NCBI GenBank assembly: GCA_022829145.1
Contig: CM040758.1
Location: 8,292,128-8,356,127 of the forward strand
Length of the DNA stretch: 64,000 nt
Direction: 5' to 3'
From: Albula goreensis
Lineage: Eukaryota > Chordata > Actinopteri > Albuliformes > Albulidae
The position numbers were made by a program, and so were the translations under genes. Below, one piece after another: positions 19,363-62,515 of the stretch. How positions within the stretch are numbered: the first letter of the stretch is position 1; every line of letters starts with the position of its first letter. The notes beneath the pieces were generated by a model that did no database searches, was not told the DNA's origin, and was given only the letters and a program-made list of their open reading frames with translations.

Positions 19363-22053
19363 CTGTTGAGAGAGTGAAACTGGTTAATGGAACTTATTTG
19401 GGATGAACAGGTGAAGCATTTTGTTAAAAGTGGGAAGTGACTTTATCTGTATTCCTGTAAAATATTATTGTTACATGTGTCATGGCAAATAACTGCAATT
19501 TATTAGCAACCTGTAAAAGCTAAGCTATTTTCTCTAACTCTGGTCTCACCTCATTCTTGACATTATCCAAGCTTGCTTCATCAGTGTGTCTCATTCTCCT
19601 TTTTGTCATGCCATTTTTCACCATGGTTTCTGACAGTTCCCGGCTATCCCGAGTTTTTCTCAACTTCTTGTGACAGAACCCCCCGAAGCGAGTAAACATG
19701 GACCGCAGTGATGTTTTCAGGGAGGCCTTCTTCTTTTCGGGGGTCTCCTCTGTTTGATCAGACACAATGTCTAGAGTCCTGCTCTCACTCTCTGTGGAAG
19801 ATACCTCAGGCTCCACATTTGTGTGTTTGGAGGTACACCCTGTGTCCTCTTCCTGGTTGCTTGCCCTGTTAAGGGGGTCAGTGTGCTGTGTGTGATCAGG
19901 AACATTTCTGCAAAAGCTCATTTCACTTTGGACAGAGGACAATAGGACCTCCATGGAGCTTCTTTGCTTAGCTCTTATCGAATAGTTTGAGCTAGATGTA
20001 CTCTCTTCTACACTGCTATCGAAAACCAAAATGCTTGGCTTCTCTGGGAGCTCCTGGCTTTCAACTGAGTCTTCAGAAGGCGAATGTTGCCCATTCAAGC
20101 TGGGTGGGGCAGAGATGTGGGCGCCCTTGTATCCCTGCAATGAAAATTCATAGTACTGCTGGTAACAGCGGGACGGGCTCAAATGCTGCAAGGTGACGAA
20201 GGGGTGATGGAGTGCATGACTAGCACTGATCCTCTGCTGTCTGTCCACAGAGAACATCCTCTTCAGCAGGTCCACCATGCAAAGGCGGTCAGTGATCTCC
20301 GCCGCTCCTCCCTGCAAGTCGAGCGTTGGGTCCTCCACCAGCCCAAGCTTCTTCAGAGAGCTCGCCACTTGATGCTTCGATTTCTGGCTGCGTTTCACAG
20401 GTCCTGTCCCCTGTGCGGACACCTTGGGCCTGAGCGTCCACTGGTACTCCCCAGTGGTGTCCATAATCTTGTCAAAAAACAATGTTCCCTTCATTGCCGA
20501 CTCTATGATGCTGGATGGAGGAATTCCCGAGAACTCAAAGATGTAGTGTGCCAAGTCCAACTCACACTTTGCCGGATAGAGGACATAGCCCAAGTATTGT
20601 TCTGCCATCACGCAGCCCACAGACCATATATCTACCTTCCCACAGAAAGGGAGGCCCAGAAGAATTTCAGGAGCCCTGTAGCATCTGACAAAAAAGACAA
20701 AATGGCTGACTGAAGTGCATTGGTAAAAACACTCTAGCAGCAATTCAAAGTACTTTACATTCTAGTCAGGTTCCGTGTAAGCTAGTCATGAACATGAATG
20801 CAAGGACTAAGCTAATTGATACAAATTTTAGCCAAATCTATGCCACTTGACTTCTTTAACTGTTTTTTTAAGTACTTCAATGAATTTAAGTACATTCTAA
20901 AGGTCTTGCATCACATTAATGGACAGAAATCACCATAATAATAATAATGTTACATTTATGTTGTACTCCACAATGTTACTTTTGTAATCAAACAGTTCAA
21001 ACGTGGTTAAAGTGCAGATTTTATAAGGTTTTAAATAGGGTTATTTTTATGCAGTTTAGTTGGGAAGAAAACCACATGGCTCGGGCATTGACCAAAGTTG
21101 AAGGCAAATCTAACCAGCTGTTTACCGTTCGGTTAGCAGGCCAACGCCAGAGCTTTATCAGTTTACAATTTTGATGTATAAAAATGAATGGCTCTGCGGT
21201 GGGAGAACTCTGTGCCATTTTAGCCAGAATATTCAAAGTATAACAGGTAAGCAAGCTATGATGACCACCAGGAACCAGTTAGCTTGCTGGGCACTTACGT
21301 TGTATAGCTCCATCCTTCATGCAATGGAATACCTACATTTAGACCGAATAGCTGACTGACAAAAACATATTGGACTAAACCATGACCATAGCCAGTTAAG
21401 ACTACAAACAAGTATGCAGCAATTTCTCACCTAAACTGCCCAGCTGTTCGGAAATATGAATCTACATGCATTTAGTATAAGCGGTGTTCATATTCATAAG
21501 GTTTATATTAATTAAGAACTTACATGGTTTGGATGTAGGGCGACCACAACTTTGTAATTTCGCTCTTGGCAACTGAGCTGCCGAAGTCGATCAGCTTCAC
21601 TCGGTATGGATATCGCTGCTGGTTGACTGTCATTATGTTGACTGGCTTGATATCAGCATGAATTATTCCGACATCATCCAGTTTTTTTAGCGCTCTGAGT
21701 ATCTGTAATGTAATTGTCCGAATATCTCTGACAGCCATCGGCCTGAAATCGTTCTCATACTGTAGCTGATACAGGCTCATCTCCAGTTCTTCAAAGACCA
21801 AGAAGTATTGGGTTCGATCCTTGAAAGCTTCAAAGAAGCGCACGATGTGGCTTTCCTCCGCATTCTCTTTGGCAAGGGCAGTTAGAAAATGTCGTTCCCG
21901 CCTGAACATGTTTTCTTTGGACGGTGGCAATCTCTTTATCACCACAGTTTTAAAATCGCTCCGACGCTGGAATGCTGCGACTTGCCCGAATGTTCCACAG
22001 CCACTGAGTTTTAAAAACTTATATTGTTCTTCGCTTGAAAAGAGATTAACCAT
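19072..22053 (-). CDS. HIPK-like (DYRK/HIPK family) serine/threonine protein kinase, three exons
   Basis: Exons 22053-21524, 20684-19550 and 19362-19072; 1,956 nt, 651 residues. The start ATG (GCCATCATGG) has a good Kozak context. Kinase motifs: Gly-loop GCGTFG (18-23), Lys40, alpha-C Glu53, catalytic loop HADIKPVNIM (132-141) with Asp134, and DFG at 156-158. The activation loop has Tyr173 in SPYIQT and then CYRAPE. HAD instead of HRD, PYRVK before the DFG, and RAPEILLGLPF followed by the IWSVGCVMAE block are HIPK signatures. The usual KPEN is KPVN. The protein is about half the length of HIPK1-3 (about 1,200) and nearer HIPK4. The C-terminal tail has no homeobox-interacting region that I recognise; instead it carries two copies of a basic QTxETPxKKK module. 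It could belong to the expanded HIPK-like family of fish; I do not assign a symbol. All catalytic residues are present, so it should be active. Confidence 0.9.
20685..21523 (-). other. Intron 1 of the HIPK-like kinase
   Basis: 839-bp intron, donor CAT|GTAAGT and acceptor TTTTTTGTCAG, splitting the activation segment just before CYRAPE. No other coding signal seen inside. Confidence 0.8.
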
Positions 22054-22146
22054 GATGGCACCACTCGATCCAACAGCTTTGCAAAAAACGGTAAAACTCT
22101 TGCGGGAGAAAAATACTAAACTATCACAGATAACTGTCTGCATGTA

Positions 22147-24866: not shown

Positions 24867-27800
24867 ATGGCTTCAAGAAGAGGCTTCCAAGCAGTTGGGG
24901 ATGGCACCGTAAGACCAATCTTTTTCAATTTGCAAATCTTTGCAATTTGTTTCTGTAGTCTTTGGTAGATTACTGGGACTGGCTTAATGTCATGTTTTTA
25001 ACGTGTTTGACGTCTGTAGTGATGTGAGATGTATTTGTAGTGATTTTTTTTATCTGTCATTCGTTTAGCCTGTGATGAGACCCGCAGATAGGGTTCCATT
25101 GAGAGATCTGCAGAATGAAATACTTGAACAAGTTTCCAACGGCTCTGCAACTAAAGCAAAGTCCAGTATCATCGACTTCAAAAAGAAAGGTATGTAAGCA
25201 CCCACACATTTTCATGGTCTATTGTTCATGGTCATTGTTTTGCTAAACCTGCCACTAATGGCATGCTGTTGTAATGATGCCATCCTTCTCTTCAGGGTGA
25301 CATGGCTGAGCTCCAGGCAGAGGTACTGCCACACTTCCTACCAGCTCGCAGCATGTCCACCAGCATGGCTTCTGTAACAGAAACGGGGATCACCAAGCAG
25401 ACCCTCGCAGCCATTGAAATCTCTGAGACTAAGGCGGTTTTTACAAAAGGCTGCCATGGGTTCCCCACAGCTGATGAGTTCGATGACGGGTTGCAGGCCG
25501 GCATTGGCGGTAGCACAGTGCTGGACGTTGAGAGAGCGGAGCTTGACAGTGCAGCAGTGGATTGCTTAAATGACCGCTCCATCTTTAATGTAGTTCAAGC
25601 CTCTTATGAGGACTCCACTGTTGAGCACTGCACTGATTTTGGAGTTGGGGACGTAACGTTCAAATCCTTTGTTTGTTCTGAGGCTCAGGTTGAAATCTCT
25701 GAGACCTCTTGTCTGCCAGAAGAGACTGTCCTGCCTTTGACTGGAGCTGCAGCAGATGATTGGAGATGTGGTTTATTTCAGAGCAATCACAGTGAATGCT
25801 GCGATTCCTGTTTAAACATCTCCCAGTGTTCAGATTTGAGTTGTAGTTATGAGCATAAAGACCATGCTTACTGTCTCCTGAAGAGGGATGATGCCAGTGT
25901 CCTCCATTGCACAGATGGATTCTCTGCATTATGCTTTCCCCAAGAGGACAGCACGGGTTCTTATTCAAATCTGGAAGATGACACAGCAGCACACTGTCTC
26001 ACTGTTGACCAATCACAGGGTGCAGCATCACAGAATCTTGCTTTAAACCAAACACAGCCCACAGCTGAGCAGAGTCTTGGTCCTGACCGGTCACAGGTCA
26101 TAGCAGAGCAGAGTCTTGCTGCTGACCAATCACGAGGCACAGCAGTACAGGGCCTTGCTTCTGACCAATCCCAGGACAGTGCAGTGCAGAGCTTTTCTCC
26201 TGACCAATCACTGGACACAGCAGAGAAGGGTGTTGCTCCTGAGCAGTCACAGGCCATGGTAGAGCAGAGTTTTGCTGTTGACCAATCACAAGACATAACA
26301 GAGAAGAGTCTTGCTGCTGACCAATCCCAGGACACAGCAGTGCAGGGTCTTACTTCTGACCAATGCCAGGACACAGCAGAGAAGAGTCTTGCCGCTGACC
26401 AATCTCAGGACTCAGCAGTGCAGGGTCTTGCTTCTGACCAATCCCAGGACACAGCAGAGAAGTATCTTTCAGCAGACCAATCCCAGGACACAGCAGTGCA
26501 GGGTCTTCCATCCGACCAATCCCAGGGCAAAGCAGAGAAGAGTCTTGCTGCAGACCAATCCCAGGACAAAGTAGAGAAGAGTCTTACTGCTGACAAATCC
26601 CAGGACACAGCAGCACTGAACCATTCTGCTGTCCAGCCACAAGACATGGTAAAGCAGAGTCCTGCTGCTGGCAAGTCGCAGGCAACAGCTGTGCAGAAAC
26701 TTACTGCTGACCAATCCCAGGACACAGCAGAGCACAAATCTGTTGCTGACAAATCGCTAGACACAGCAGTACAGGGTCTTGCTTCTGTCCAGTCCCAGGA
26801 CAGTGCGGTGCAGAGTCTTTCTTCTGACCAATCAAAGGACACAGCAGTGCCAGGTCTTACTGATGACCAATCACAGGACATTGCAGCACAGTATGTCCCT
26901 GCTGGCCAGAGTCTTACTGCTGAGTCCAGAATGTGTGAACCATCAAAGCATCCATTTTGCCTGCTGGTGTCTCTGACACCCCTGAACGCAGTCAGGAGGG
27001 ACACAACTCTTCCCACTGGTCTCCATTCGGTGCAGGCCTGCAAACCCCAAAAATGGCCAGCAGCACACGCCTAAGGATGCTGGCTCCTGGATGCACCCTT
27101 GAGGCTGGGAGCAGCCTTGCAAGGGCAAGAGAGAGCAGGCTGTGGATGGGGAACCTGGAGAGCCCAATGCCACCTCCGCAGCTCAACTCCACCCTTATAA
27201 ACTCCATACTAACCGCAGCTGCTGCCACGCCCTGTGCCAGAAAGACTGCTGCAGTGCTAGTGGCCCCTCCTGCTGAGGCTGTGCCGGATGTTAGGACAGG
27301 GCCATCACACGAGCAGCTGGGCCCCAAGGCACCTGCAGACCCAGCAGGGACCCAAACAGGACCCCTGCAGGCCCTCGGAGACCTGTTAGGCACTCAGTCG
27401 GGGCCCCTGCAGGAACAGTTACGCCAGATGGGGGAGCTGCTCCTGCGTGCCTCAGAGAACATGGTGCCTCTGGTGGAGCGCCCCCCGGTGGAGCACCACA
27501 GTGTCTTCGCAGCAACCAGTCCGGTGCAGATGGCCGATCATAGTGTCAACACATCAGGCATCTTTGAGCGCAAGAGGGAGCCCTCTGTGGCCGAGGCCAG
27601 CACCAGCACAGACTCCCTGCTGTGGAAGTAAGTGTTGTTTTGTTGGGCCTTCTCCGTTCAGATGGGTAACTTGTGACAAGTGGTGTAGGCTGTGCACACT
27701 GTAATTTGTGATGGGTGATGTAAAGCATGTGATTAGTGTTGGCTTGTTTATGCTGCATGCTGTGTGTGATTCATGGTCGGTAGTGTAGGTGGTGTGTTTA

Positions 27801-30800
27801 TGAGGGTGTCTCTGCTCTCTTTCTCAGCCTGGCTCCTGAGAGTCTGTCTGAGTGGCCACGGCAGGATCTGGAGCAGCGGCTCTTCTCCACTCTCATCATG
27901 GTGGAGGCTCTGTCCCAGCAGCTGGCCTCAGCCAGGGCACACGGCCAGGGTGGCGGTCCCCGGCCCTCTGATCTCAGAGACAAGGTGGTCCAGACTGACC
28001 ACACGGAGCTCAGCCAGGTAGCACACACACGCTCCGCCCAGTCAGGAAGGATACACATACAGTCTTCCACACATACAGTTAGTGTCAGTGATTGGTATCT
28101 TATGGTATTTATAAAACTTGTAGAATAATTTTTGACATCTGTCAGGGTGAATGAGGTGTGTTCATTGGCAGCTGGCTAGATTTGAGAAGTAAAATCTCCC
28201 ATTTCATTGAACTGTTTTTTTTTTTTTTTTTTTTTAACAAATAGAATGTAAAATAAGCCATAATGTTGGCCAGATATCAGACAATAATGACTTCTTCAGC
28301 CAGAATTGATTGGTTGAATGAGATGCACATTAGGTTGTATGGATATGTTATTAGGGGATCTACAGAGAGATGTATCTGAAGGCCGTGGAGAGAATCCAAG
28401 CCTTGGAGTTGGACCAGGACCATCTGAGGAGCCTTCTCCAGGAAATGCGGAACAGCAGGACTGCTATGGTAGGAGACAAATTTATATTTCATTTTATTAT
28501 ATTATCCCAAACTAAAGACCATCGAGTGTTACCTGAATCTATTTCAGACAGTCAGTCAATTTCCCAAAATATCTTATGCAACTGTGTTTATAAAGACTCT
28601 TTGGATTAGCTAGCCATGTTGGGCTCATGAATATGCAAATTAGTTTTTCTTCAGATACCCACAGTTTGGCTGTCCAGATGTCCTTGAACATCTTGCAAGC
28701 TAAAGGAAAACCAGTGCCACAATGGTGCATTACCCAGGGTCAAAGTTTTCATGAATATTCATGTGATACACCCCCACAGTCCTCTCAAACTTGGCAAGGG
28801 TTAGGTGCAAGAGCAGCAAAATGGGTATATACCATCAAAATCAAAAGATCTCAGTTGAGTTCTGCAGGAAATATTTATTGTTCAAAAAGCTATTGTACCT
28901 CAAATTTAAAAGCTCTTAAGTCTTTTGTAGTCAATCTTGAAAACCTAATGTAAGTCTTAATTTTCTGTTCAAACAGACTACTCTAACAGCAGAAACTGAA
29001 GAAGCTCTTGCCAGGGTGAATGAAATGAGTACAATAGCCAGTGAGGACCAAGAAAACATCTCAGAACAGGTAAGTTGTTGTCCATTGTGACCTAGAAAAT
29101 GTGACAACACTTCCCAGCCTGTGGCATCCCTGTGGGTGACATCTTATCATGAATGTTTATGATTATATGTTTTTTTGCCTAATGTCACTGGTTTAAAATG
29201 AAGTTAAAAAGATCAGTTCACAAACCCAGCAGGTGCCTGGCTAGAGAACGATAAGTAGCTTAACTTCTGTCATAGCCAATAGCCACAGCCGGTAGTGGTG
29301 CAGCTGGGACTCAGAATATCTAGCTATGGGACACCCAGCTGCAGCATGGCCATGAGCTTTTACCCTGTGAGCCACACAAAGGCCCCTGTTTACATTTCCG
29401 CATGCGTCTGCAGATGTGCCGGATTAAGGGCCTTTATAGGAAGTTCCGTGAAACGCTGAAGAGGATGGAGGAGAAATCCCAGCAGTGCATTCAGGAAAAA
29501 TGCAGCATGGAGCAGCAGAAGGAAGAAGCCCTGAAAACCAAGGACGCGGTAAGCTTTTGCTCTAACCTGTTTCCCAGGCGCGGGATACGCATGCCCATGA
29601 GCAAATGTCAGTAATGTGACCTTTAACCTTTGCGCAGGCCCTGTCGGTGCTGGAGGAGATGAGGACACGACACACTGCCCAAATAGCAGAGCTGGAGCGA
29701 AGTGTGGGCTCTCACATGGAGCTAATCCCTGCACTCTCAAATGCCCACAAGGAGCAGGTATCAGAGGCTGTGCTCTCTGTAGCACACTGGAGCTGGTGTA
29801 ACGCATAATCCATATCCTGGCAGTGTTCTGTGTTACTCTTTAACGTTTTAATCTTTCCTTTTCCCCAAGGTTGCTTTAAATGAAGACTACGTTGAGTCTC
29901 TTCAGGCTGCAGATGAACTCTTGAAAGACACGATATGTGATCAGTCCAAGTTGAATGAGGAGGTCAGTTGGTTAGATGTTGTATCCTTTTTTATACCAGG
30001 ACTTGTGTGTCATTTTAGAACTAAATGGAATTACAACGTAACATGGTGCTTTCACATATGGGTGAAATTTGTATAGAAGTGATGTGTGGTATGGTGCTGT
30101 TCCACTGAGCTGAGATGTCCGTTACTCTTGTACAGCTGTGCAAAGCTCAGTTCCTCCTCCAGCGGACGAGACCGGTCCTGTTGAAACTGAACGAGAGAGC
30201 CGCTGCCGCTCTCCAGGTGTGCCGCCAGCAGCAGGAGGAGACCAATCAGGTCCGCCCTTGCATCTCTACATCACTATCTGCCTCCCTCAGCTCAAAGCCT
30301 AGACTAATACTATCTACTCACTTCAAGGTCTTTGAAGCACTACATATTTAAACTTAAGAGGGAAGTTTATTTGAATGTTGCAGATGCAGGATGAACTGGA
30401 ACAGTCGAATTCTCGTCTCAAAGACGCCGAGCAGCAAATTGGGGACCTGACTCTGCAGCTCACCATCGCCAACTCAGGTAAGGGCCAGCCAGGTGCACGG
30501 TCGTTCTGGCGGTGGTGCGTGTGCAGTGTTTCTTTGAAGCATTCTGACCCCCCTGTGCTGTGCAGAGATGGGGGTGCTGAGGCAGCGGCTGGAGGAGCTG
30601 GAGGTGGAGCGCTCCCAGGCGGAGGTGAGGAGCACGGAGCTGTCCGCCACGCTGTGCTCCACACAGGCGTCCTACACCTACCTGCAGCAGGTCCACAACG
30701 CCGAAACACACAGGTGAGTGCGTCCGACACATGCAGGTTCACAGGAATCAGCATTGCTGCTTTCGTTTGGTTGTTCACCCCCATGCTGTCCTGTCCTCTC

Positions 30801-44262: not shown

Positions 44263-62515
<18,253 letters not shown>

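Follow-up and report, generated by a model that had tools for sequence, protein, structure and literature searches.

The closest described systems are the Astrin-SKAP (kinastrin) complex, the MELT arrays of KNL1/Spc105, the SQ/TQ cluster domain (SCD) and, as a general class, the coding minisatellites. For human astrin, passages of one report give residues 1–324 as predicted to be unstructured and as removable with assembly of the complex kept, and loss of residues 1–464 as compromising the interaction with the Ndc80 complex (PMC5602300). Excerpts of two other reports call the N-terminal part of astrin globular or a 'head' by rotary shadowing (PMC7803464, PMC4843017). The MELT repeats of KNL1/Spc105 grow by duplication and then diverge, according to a passage of PMC7292645 that cites Tromer et al. 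2015. An SCD is defined, in an excerpt of PMC10942620, as at least three SQ/TQ within 50–100 residues.

The locus described here lies in a window of 64,000 nucleotides, the whole stretch of DNA that was analysed, in a gene that is assigned to astrin/SPAG5; 23 units of 39 bp stand head to tail in its third exon (Table 1). Tandem units, a length that is a multiple of three and an open frame are found in 23 of 23 units; the array is a genuine coding minisatellite, whose units have drifted further apart and stand in a less regular order than the original prediction supposed, and it looks like a new example, in fish astrin, of an already known kind, the ordinary coding repeat. With the Astrin-SKAP system it shares a tail that is collinear with human astrin, the array falling in the N-terminal part, but the fish protein is about 449 residues longer than the human one, and 299 of these are the array. 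Serial repeats in a kinetochore protein are common to this locus and KNL1/Spc105; however, the protein and the unit are different, and whereas the binding of Bub3-Bub1 by MELT is proven, the role of the array is putative. The 18 SQ/TQ in the 299 residues of the array agree with the SCD count rule as excerpted from PMC10942620, although the clustering could be no more than a by-product of the repetition. The tandem 39-bp unit with its length in multiples of three, the block duplications and the more uniform centre are those of the coding minisatellites in general, yet the astrin array is strongly diverged and gives no sign of current instability.

Table 1. Coordinates of the gene, the repeat array and its parts within the window, with the basis of each call.
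Feature	Position	Strand	Basis or remark
Gene assigned to astrin/SPAG5, 24 coding exons, ATG to TAA	24867–34791	+	exons chosen by eye, GT-AG junctions
Exon 3, encoding the array together with most of the N-terminal arm; one frame break inside	25321–27627	+	
Partial, diverged unit DTAAHCLTV at the upstream edge	25980–26006	+	TRF period-156 row starts at 25980; matched by eye
Array of 23 full 39-bp units in exon 3	26007–26903	+	TRF and unit-by-unit reading
Units 4–5, two-unit block resembling units 20–21 (34 and 33 of 39 bases identical)	26124–26201	+	
Units 8–14, perfect EK/VQ alternation	26280–26552	+	unit alignment, local tests, shuffles
Units 20–21, partner block of units 4–5 (lag 16)	26748–26825	+	
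Shortened unit remnant (21 nt shorter) downstream of the array	26904–26923	+	by eye
Frame-break zone	26930–27074	+	array frame closes at TAA 27072–27074; astrin goes on in the frame opening at 26939

The product of the 24-exon chain is a long coiled-coil protein, in which the start of exon 5 at 28370 (ag followed by ATG) keeps the frame. By blastp, the translated tail matched human SPAG5, whose reference sequence was entered by hand, with E 3.5e-41 and 27% identity, collinear over human residues 322–1193; on this match the naming of the gene as astrin in the original prediction holds, and the gene can be taken with high confidence to be astrin/SPAG5. Exon-level tblastn was weaker: two hits follow the human order (E 8e-5 and 0.068), one does not (E 0.12), and another is a match of low complexity on the array (E 0.008). 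An N-terminal block MR..PLR stands at the matching place (fish 18–28, human 19–29), with an E of 0.31 that is not significant alone. Pfam searches of three protein pieces and exon 14 returned nothing above the cut-off (two weak matches below it, from the three pieces), and no astrin model was noticed. The array shares its reading frame with the coding sequence upstream of it. If the frame break described below is passed over, the protein has about 1,642 residues, compared with 1,193 in human, and consists of a head of 283, the array of 299, 22 residues from the array to the frame switch and a tail of 1,038; the array had been held to explain most of the excess length, and with the break passed over it does supply about two thirds of it. 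No such period was found in residues 1–464 of the hand-entered human astrin, where the best lag identity is 10%, compared with 53% in the array.

Exon 3 has to start at 25321 because the best-looking, nearer acceptor, ttctcttcag (ending at 25295, exon start 25296), brings an in-frame stop into the reading, as judged by eye; the acceptor in use, which ends at 25320, is by eye of a less usual kind, with no close pyrimidine tract. On the minus strand of the window, protein kinase exons lie at 19523–22146 (Pfam Pkinase, E 2.5e-11 and 7.5e-23), presumably of a HIPK-like kinase, and exons of a LETM1-like gene lie at 50414–51380 (Pfam LETM1_RBD, E 2.4e-21 at 50414–50797), with a second piece at E 4.5e-5, just under the cut-off; TRF also places a 21-bp tandem repeat of four copies at 51248–51331, within the LETM1-like exon region.

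The 23-copy, 13-residue (39 bp) array was recovered at exactly the coordinates first proposed for it, with 23 of 23 units open, zero indels between units and a single open frame; the consensus unit is DQSQDTAEQSLAA. TRF describes it with a period of 39, 21.1 copies and a score of 705, and also with a period of 156, equal to four units, at a slightly higher score of 776. Further copies, sought on both strands of the window as sequences that agree with a single central-type unit at 25 or more of its 39 bases, were not found, and no RNA family reached the gathering threshold. Scans for relatives gave two pattern matches in viral contigs and 12 in genome contigs, of which none was confirmed, as is to be expected of a fish gene. 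Among the literature matches listed, no title concerns a tandem repeat in astrin/SPAG5.

The 23 units share a mean pairwise identity of 71% in DNA and 48% in protein. The central copies had been described as more alike than those at the edges, and this is the case: the mean pairwise identity is 82% for units 8–15 and 67% for the outer units (1–7 with 16–23), and none of 5000 shuffles of unit order produced an eight-unit block as uniform. Similarity between units declines with distance along the array (p = 0.009). The proposed alternation of two unit types, EK and VQ, stands for a part of the array only. Residue 8 across the 23 units reads SEEVVEEEVEVEVEEAKVEVVVA, in which E and V alternate strictly in units 8–14 (7 of 23); outside these units the order is irregular, with more block duplications at lags 4, 6 and 16. 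Array-wide alternation was rejected, since the test of even minus odd lag was not significant (p = 0.24), and the test of lag 2 minus lag 1 over the whole array was not significant either (p = 0.06). The longest alternating run of E and V at residue 8 gave p = 0.04, and the best local windows of 6, 7 and 8 units gave marginal values of p = 0.027, 0.044 and 0.106. In the protein, the array matches itself best when shifted by 26 residues, or two units (lag 26, 53% identity). Two-unit blocks, called at a threshold of 0.84 that was picked after inspection of the matrix, are repeated at lag 2 four times, compared with 0.07 expected, and at a same lag over all lags seven times, compared with 1.0 expected (0 of 5000 shuffles in each case); the lag-16 pair of units 4–5 and 20–21 is counted within this excess. 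The lag-26 self-match and the excess of two-unit blocks at lag 2 speak for the alternation; the excess of repeated blocks supports a history of block duplication, which therefore shaped the array.

Block duplications and a more uniform centre would also be seen in an active hypermutable minisatellite, in which copy number varies between individuals by ongoing unequal exchange; this reading is rather unlikely, given that no two units are identical, that the closest pairs (units 9–11 and 9–13, 92%) still differ at 3 of 39 bases, that mean identity is at the level given above and that the longest exact in-register repeat within the array is only 33 bp. The divergence since block duplication argues against rapid turnover at the present day, and the unequal exchange of the original prediction is thus not borne out as an 'ongoing' process.

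In the frame of the array, zero stops are observed, compared with a mean of 7.2 in a drift simulation in which units evolve independently from the consensus and in which one of 5000 runs was stop-free; the units share ancestry, so the simulation overstates the expected number of stops. A frame free of stops points to translation now or formerly, and the array very probably is, or was, translated. The amino-acid constraint on the array overall is weak. The dN/dS between units, a check that had been named with the original prediction, is 0.71 (codon-column bootstrap 0.40–1.26), with control values of 1.04 and 0.91 when the frame is shifted and of 0.92 when the reverse strand is read, all pN/pS and dN/dS figures for the array being guides only; diversity hardly differs between the codon positions (0.27, 0.28 and 0.27), and 104 residues are changed, compared with 108.8 in simulation (P = 0.19). 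Within the unit, the core codons Q2, S3 and Q4 have pN of 0.12–0.13 and pS of 0.64–0.96, and look more constrained; codon 1 (D1) departs from this pattern, with pN 0.16 and pS 0.01. Low pN together with high pS at Q2-S3-Q4 gives a hint of selection on a motif rather than of a pure spacer.

The low pN and high pS of these core codons also speak for an alternative in which the array would be a multisite phospho-acceptor, a mitotic or damage signal being graded by the number of repeats, as with the MELT repeats of KNL1. The D-Q-S-Q core of most units possibly offers both an SQ site of the ATM/ATR type and a Plk1-type site, whose acidic residue stands at −2: [DEN]x[ST] is present at positions 1–3 in 19 of 23 units and also at positions 8–10 in 7 of 23, and SQ/TQ at positions 3–4 in 17 of 23. 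According to an excerpt of PMC7803464, Plk1 phosphorylates four N-terminal sites of human astrin, broadly of the form [E/N/D(Q)]x(S/T), and its docking needs the STP at 110–112. The array holds 28 [DEN]x[ST], whereas shuffling of its composition gives 10.3 and reached 28 in 0 of 5000 cases; motif counts are inflated by repeats, however, and prove little by themselves, since any sequence with a period can exceed its shuffles. SQ/TQ are only mildly above the shuffles (18 versus 11.0, P = 0.011). Acceptor-like sites with an acidic residue at −2 number 28 in the array and 17 in the head, as sequence matches only. The array-wide dN/dS, indistinguishable from 1, and the number of changed residues, close to simulation, also count against this alternative, as does the lack of an S-[S/T]-P docking motif in the astrin pieces that were scanned, the head (283 residues), the array (299), the 22 residues after the array and the tail (1,038). 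A phospho-acceptor role of the array is therefore considered unlikely. The more specific proposal, in which the D-Q-S-Q array would form a lineage-specific multivalent phospho-acceptor arm with an output set by motif number, with two acidic-directed sites in an EK unit and one in a VQ unit, is considered distinctly improbable.

The regular Q of the units recalls another ligand of astrin. Human astrin carries an LC8-binding TQT loop at residues 465–482, as given in a passage of PMC5602300, and the array could be imagined as a string of binding motifs for LC8 (DYNLL1). According to a passage of PMC6607443, charge next to the anchor Q is highly unfavourable, and 16 of the 23 units have D as residue 5, directly after S-Q. 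This D speaks against LC8 binding by the array, a TQT-like anchor free of charge at +1 was not found, and the LC8 array was rejected as extremely improbable. Outside the array, a VQT in exon 4 (KVVQTDHTE, 27982–28008) lies by eye at about the expected place of the human TQT loop, and is the better counterpart of it.

A frame break follows the array, which was not mentioned in the original prediction. The frame of the array runs 56 codons beyond it in exon 3 before the TAA, and the different frame that begins at 26939 stays open as far as the gene extends, through 1,049 codons spread over 22 exon parts; in the sequence as given, the array and the coiled coil are not encoded in one chain. The best-scoring frame switch is at about 26966–26977, between runs of TTTT (26955) and CCCC (26979). 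It may be supposed that the array, or its end, is absent from the full-length protein, either by an intron, for example the GT-AG pair 26854–27035 (182 nt), which restores the frame, or by a truncated allele that ends after the array, as the literal reading with its stop at 27072–27074 would have it. Of 116 control windows of exon 3, 57 hold a splice pair at least as good as 26854–27035: upstream of the array the count is 16 of 36, within it 41 of 52 and after the break 0 of 28, the last of which favours an intron; a looser control without bounds gave 48 of 86 windows, and 22 of the 23 introns of the gene itself outscore the pair, in an in-sample comparison. A 182-nt intron would moreover leave 21 full units translated.

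The coding score of 26854–27035 with one frame switch is 10.6 bits, low among exon windows (median 21.3, n = 41) but above 77 of 77 intron windows. With each intron left out in turn, 26904–27035, from which the array part is left out, scored above 148 of 148 intron windows, 26930–27074 above 135 of 135 and the short 26930–27035 above 172 of 182, the score being noisy in 60-base windows, where the third frame is sometimes the highest. The splice scores thus do not settle the matter (57/116 versus 0/28) and the coding scores, though noisy, are contrary to an intron, which was set aside as the explanation of the break; the 1,049 open codons downstream show that the gene is no old pseudogene. Absence of the array or its end from the full-length protein keeps some weight as a minority reading and is judged improbable on the whole. 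A one-base indel near 26970, be it a sequence error or a real allele, is favoured over an intron by the coding scores, not decisively, and of these a one-base sequence error is the favoured account.

The explanation preferred here, with moderate confidence, is that a coding minisatellite grew here by block duplication and then diverged, and that it is translated as an acidic, probably disordered and flexible spacer in the N-terminal arm of astrin. A minisatellite in the large N-terminal exon would have expanded by duplication of blocks of one to several units, and the units would have diverged after this expansion; translation would give about 300 acidic, low-complexity, probably disordered residues, which would lengthen the arm ahead of the coiled coil. 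As a flexible spacer, the array would tolerate most substitutions, with its frame kept open and its sequence loosely conserved. The array is rich in Q, S and A and acidic, with 46 D+E and 17 K+R, and a single-sequence AlphaFold model gave a mean pLDDT of 39.7 and zero secondary structure, as weak evidence for disorder; on this composition and this lack of predicted structure the array is taken to extend the N-terminal arm as a flexible segment, and the disorder suggested in the original prediction is plausible. A folded or coiled repeat was rejected, as no structure was predicted, and a PDB sequence search returned only three antibody chains (E 0.12–0.93). The globular or 'head' descriptions of the N-terminal part, in the excerpts cited at the outset, count against this explanation; so does the separation of the array and the coiled coil in the sequence as it stands, and their presence in one protein is inferred, since it requires a frame break that is due to a one-base sequence error or is bypassed in another way.

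An altered arm could matter to astrin function, in view of the Ndc80 effect and the N-terminal Plk1 sites reported for human astrin in the passages cited above. The locus offers an evident repeat in the coding sequence of a spindle protein, together with a warning on the frame of the gene model. If the phospho-acceptor arm were true, astrin would be a second kinetochore protein, besides KNL1, in which the count of tandem motifs determines the output. If the arrays of other fish differ in length, astrin would join KNL1 among the kinetochore proteins that evolve by gain and loss of repeats.
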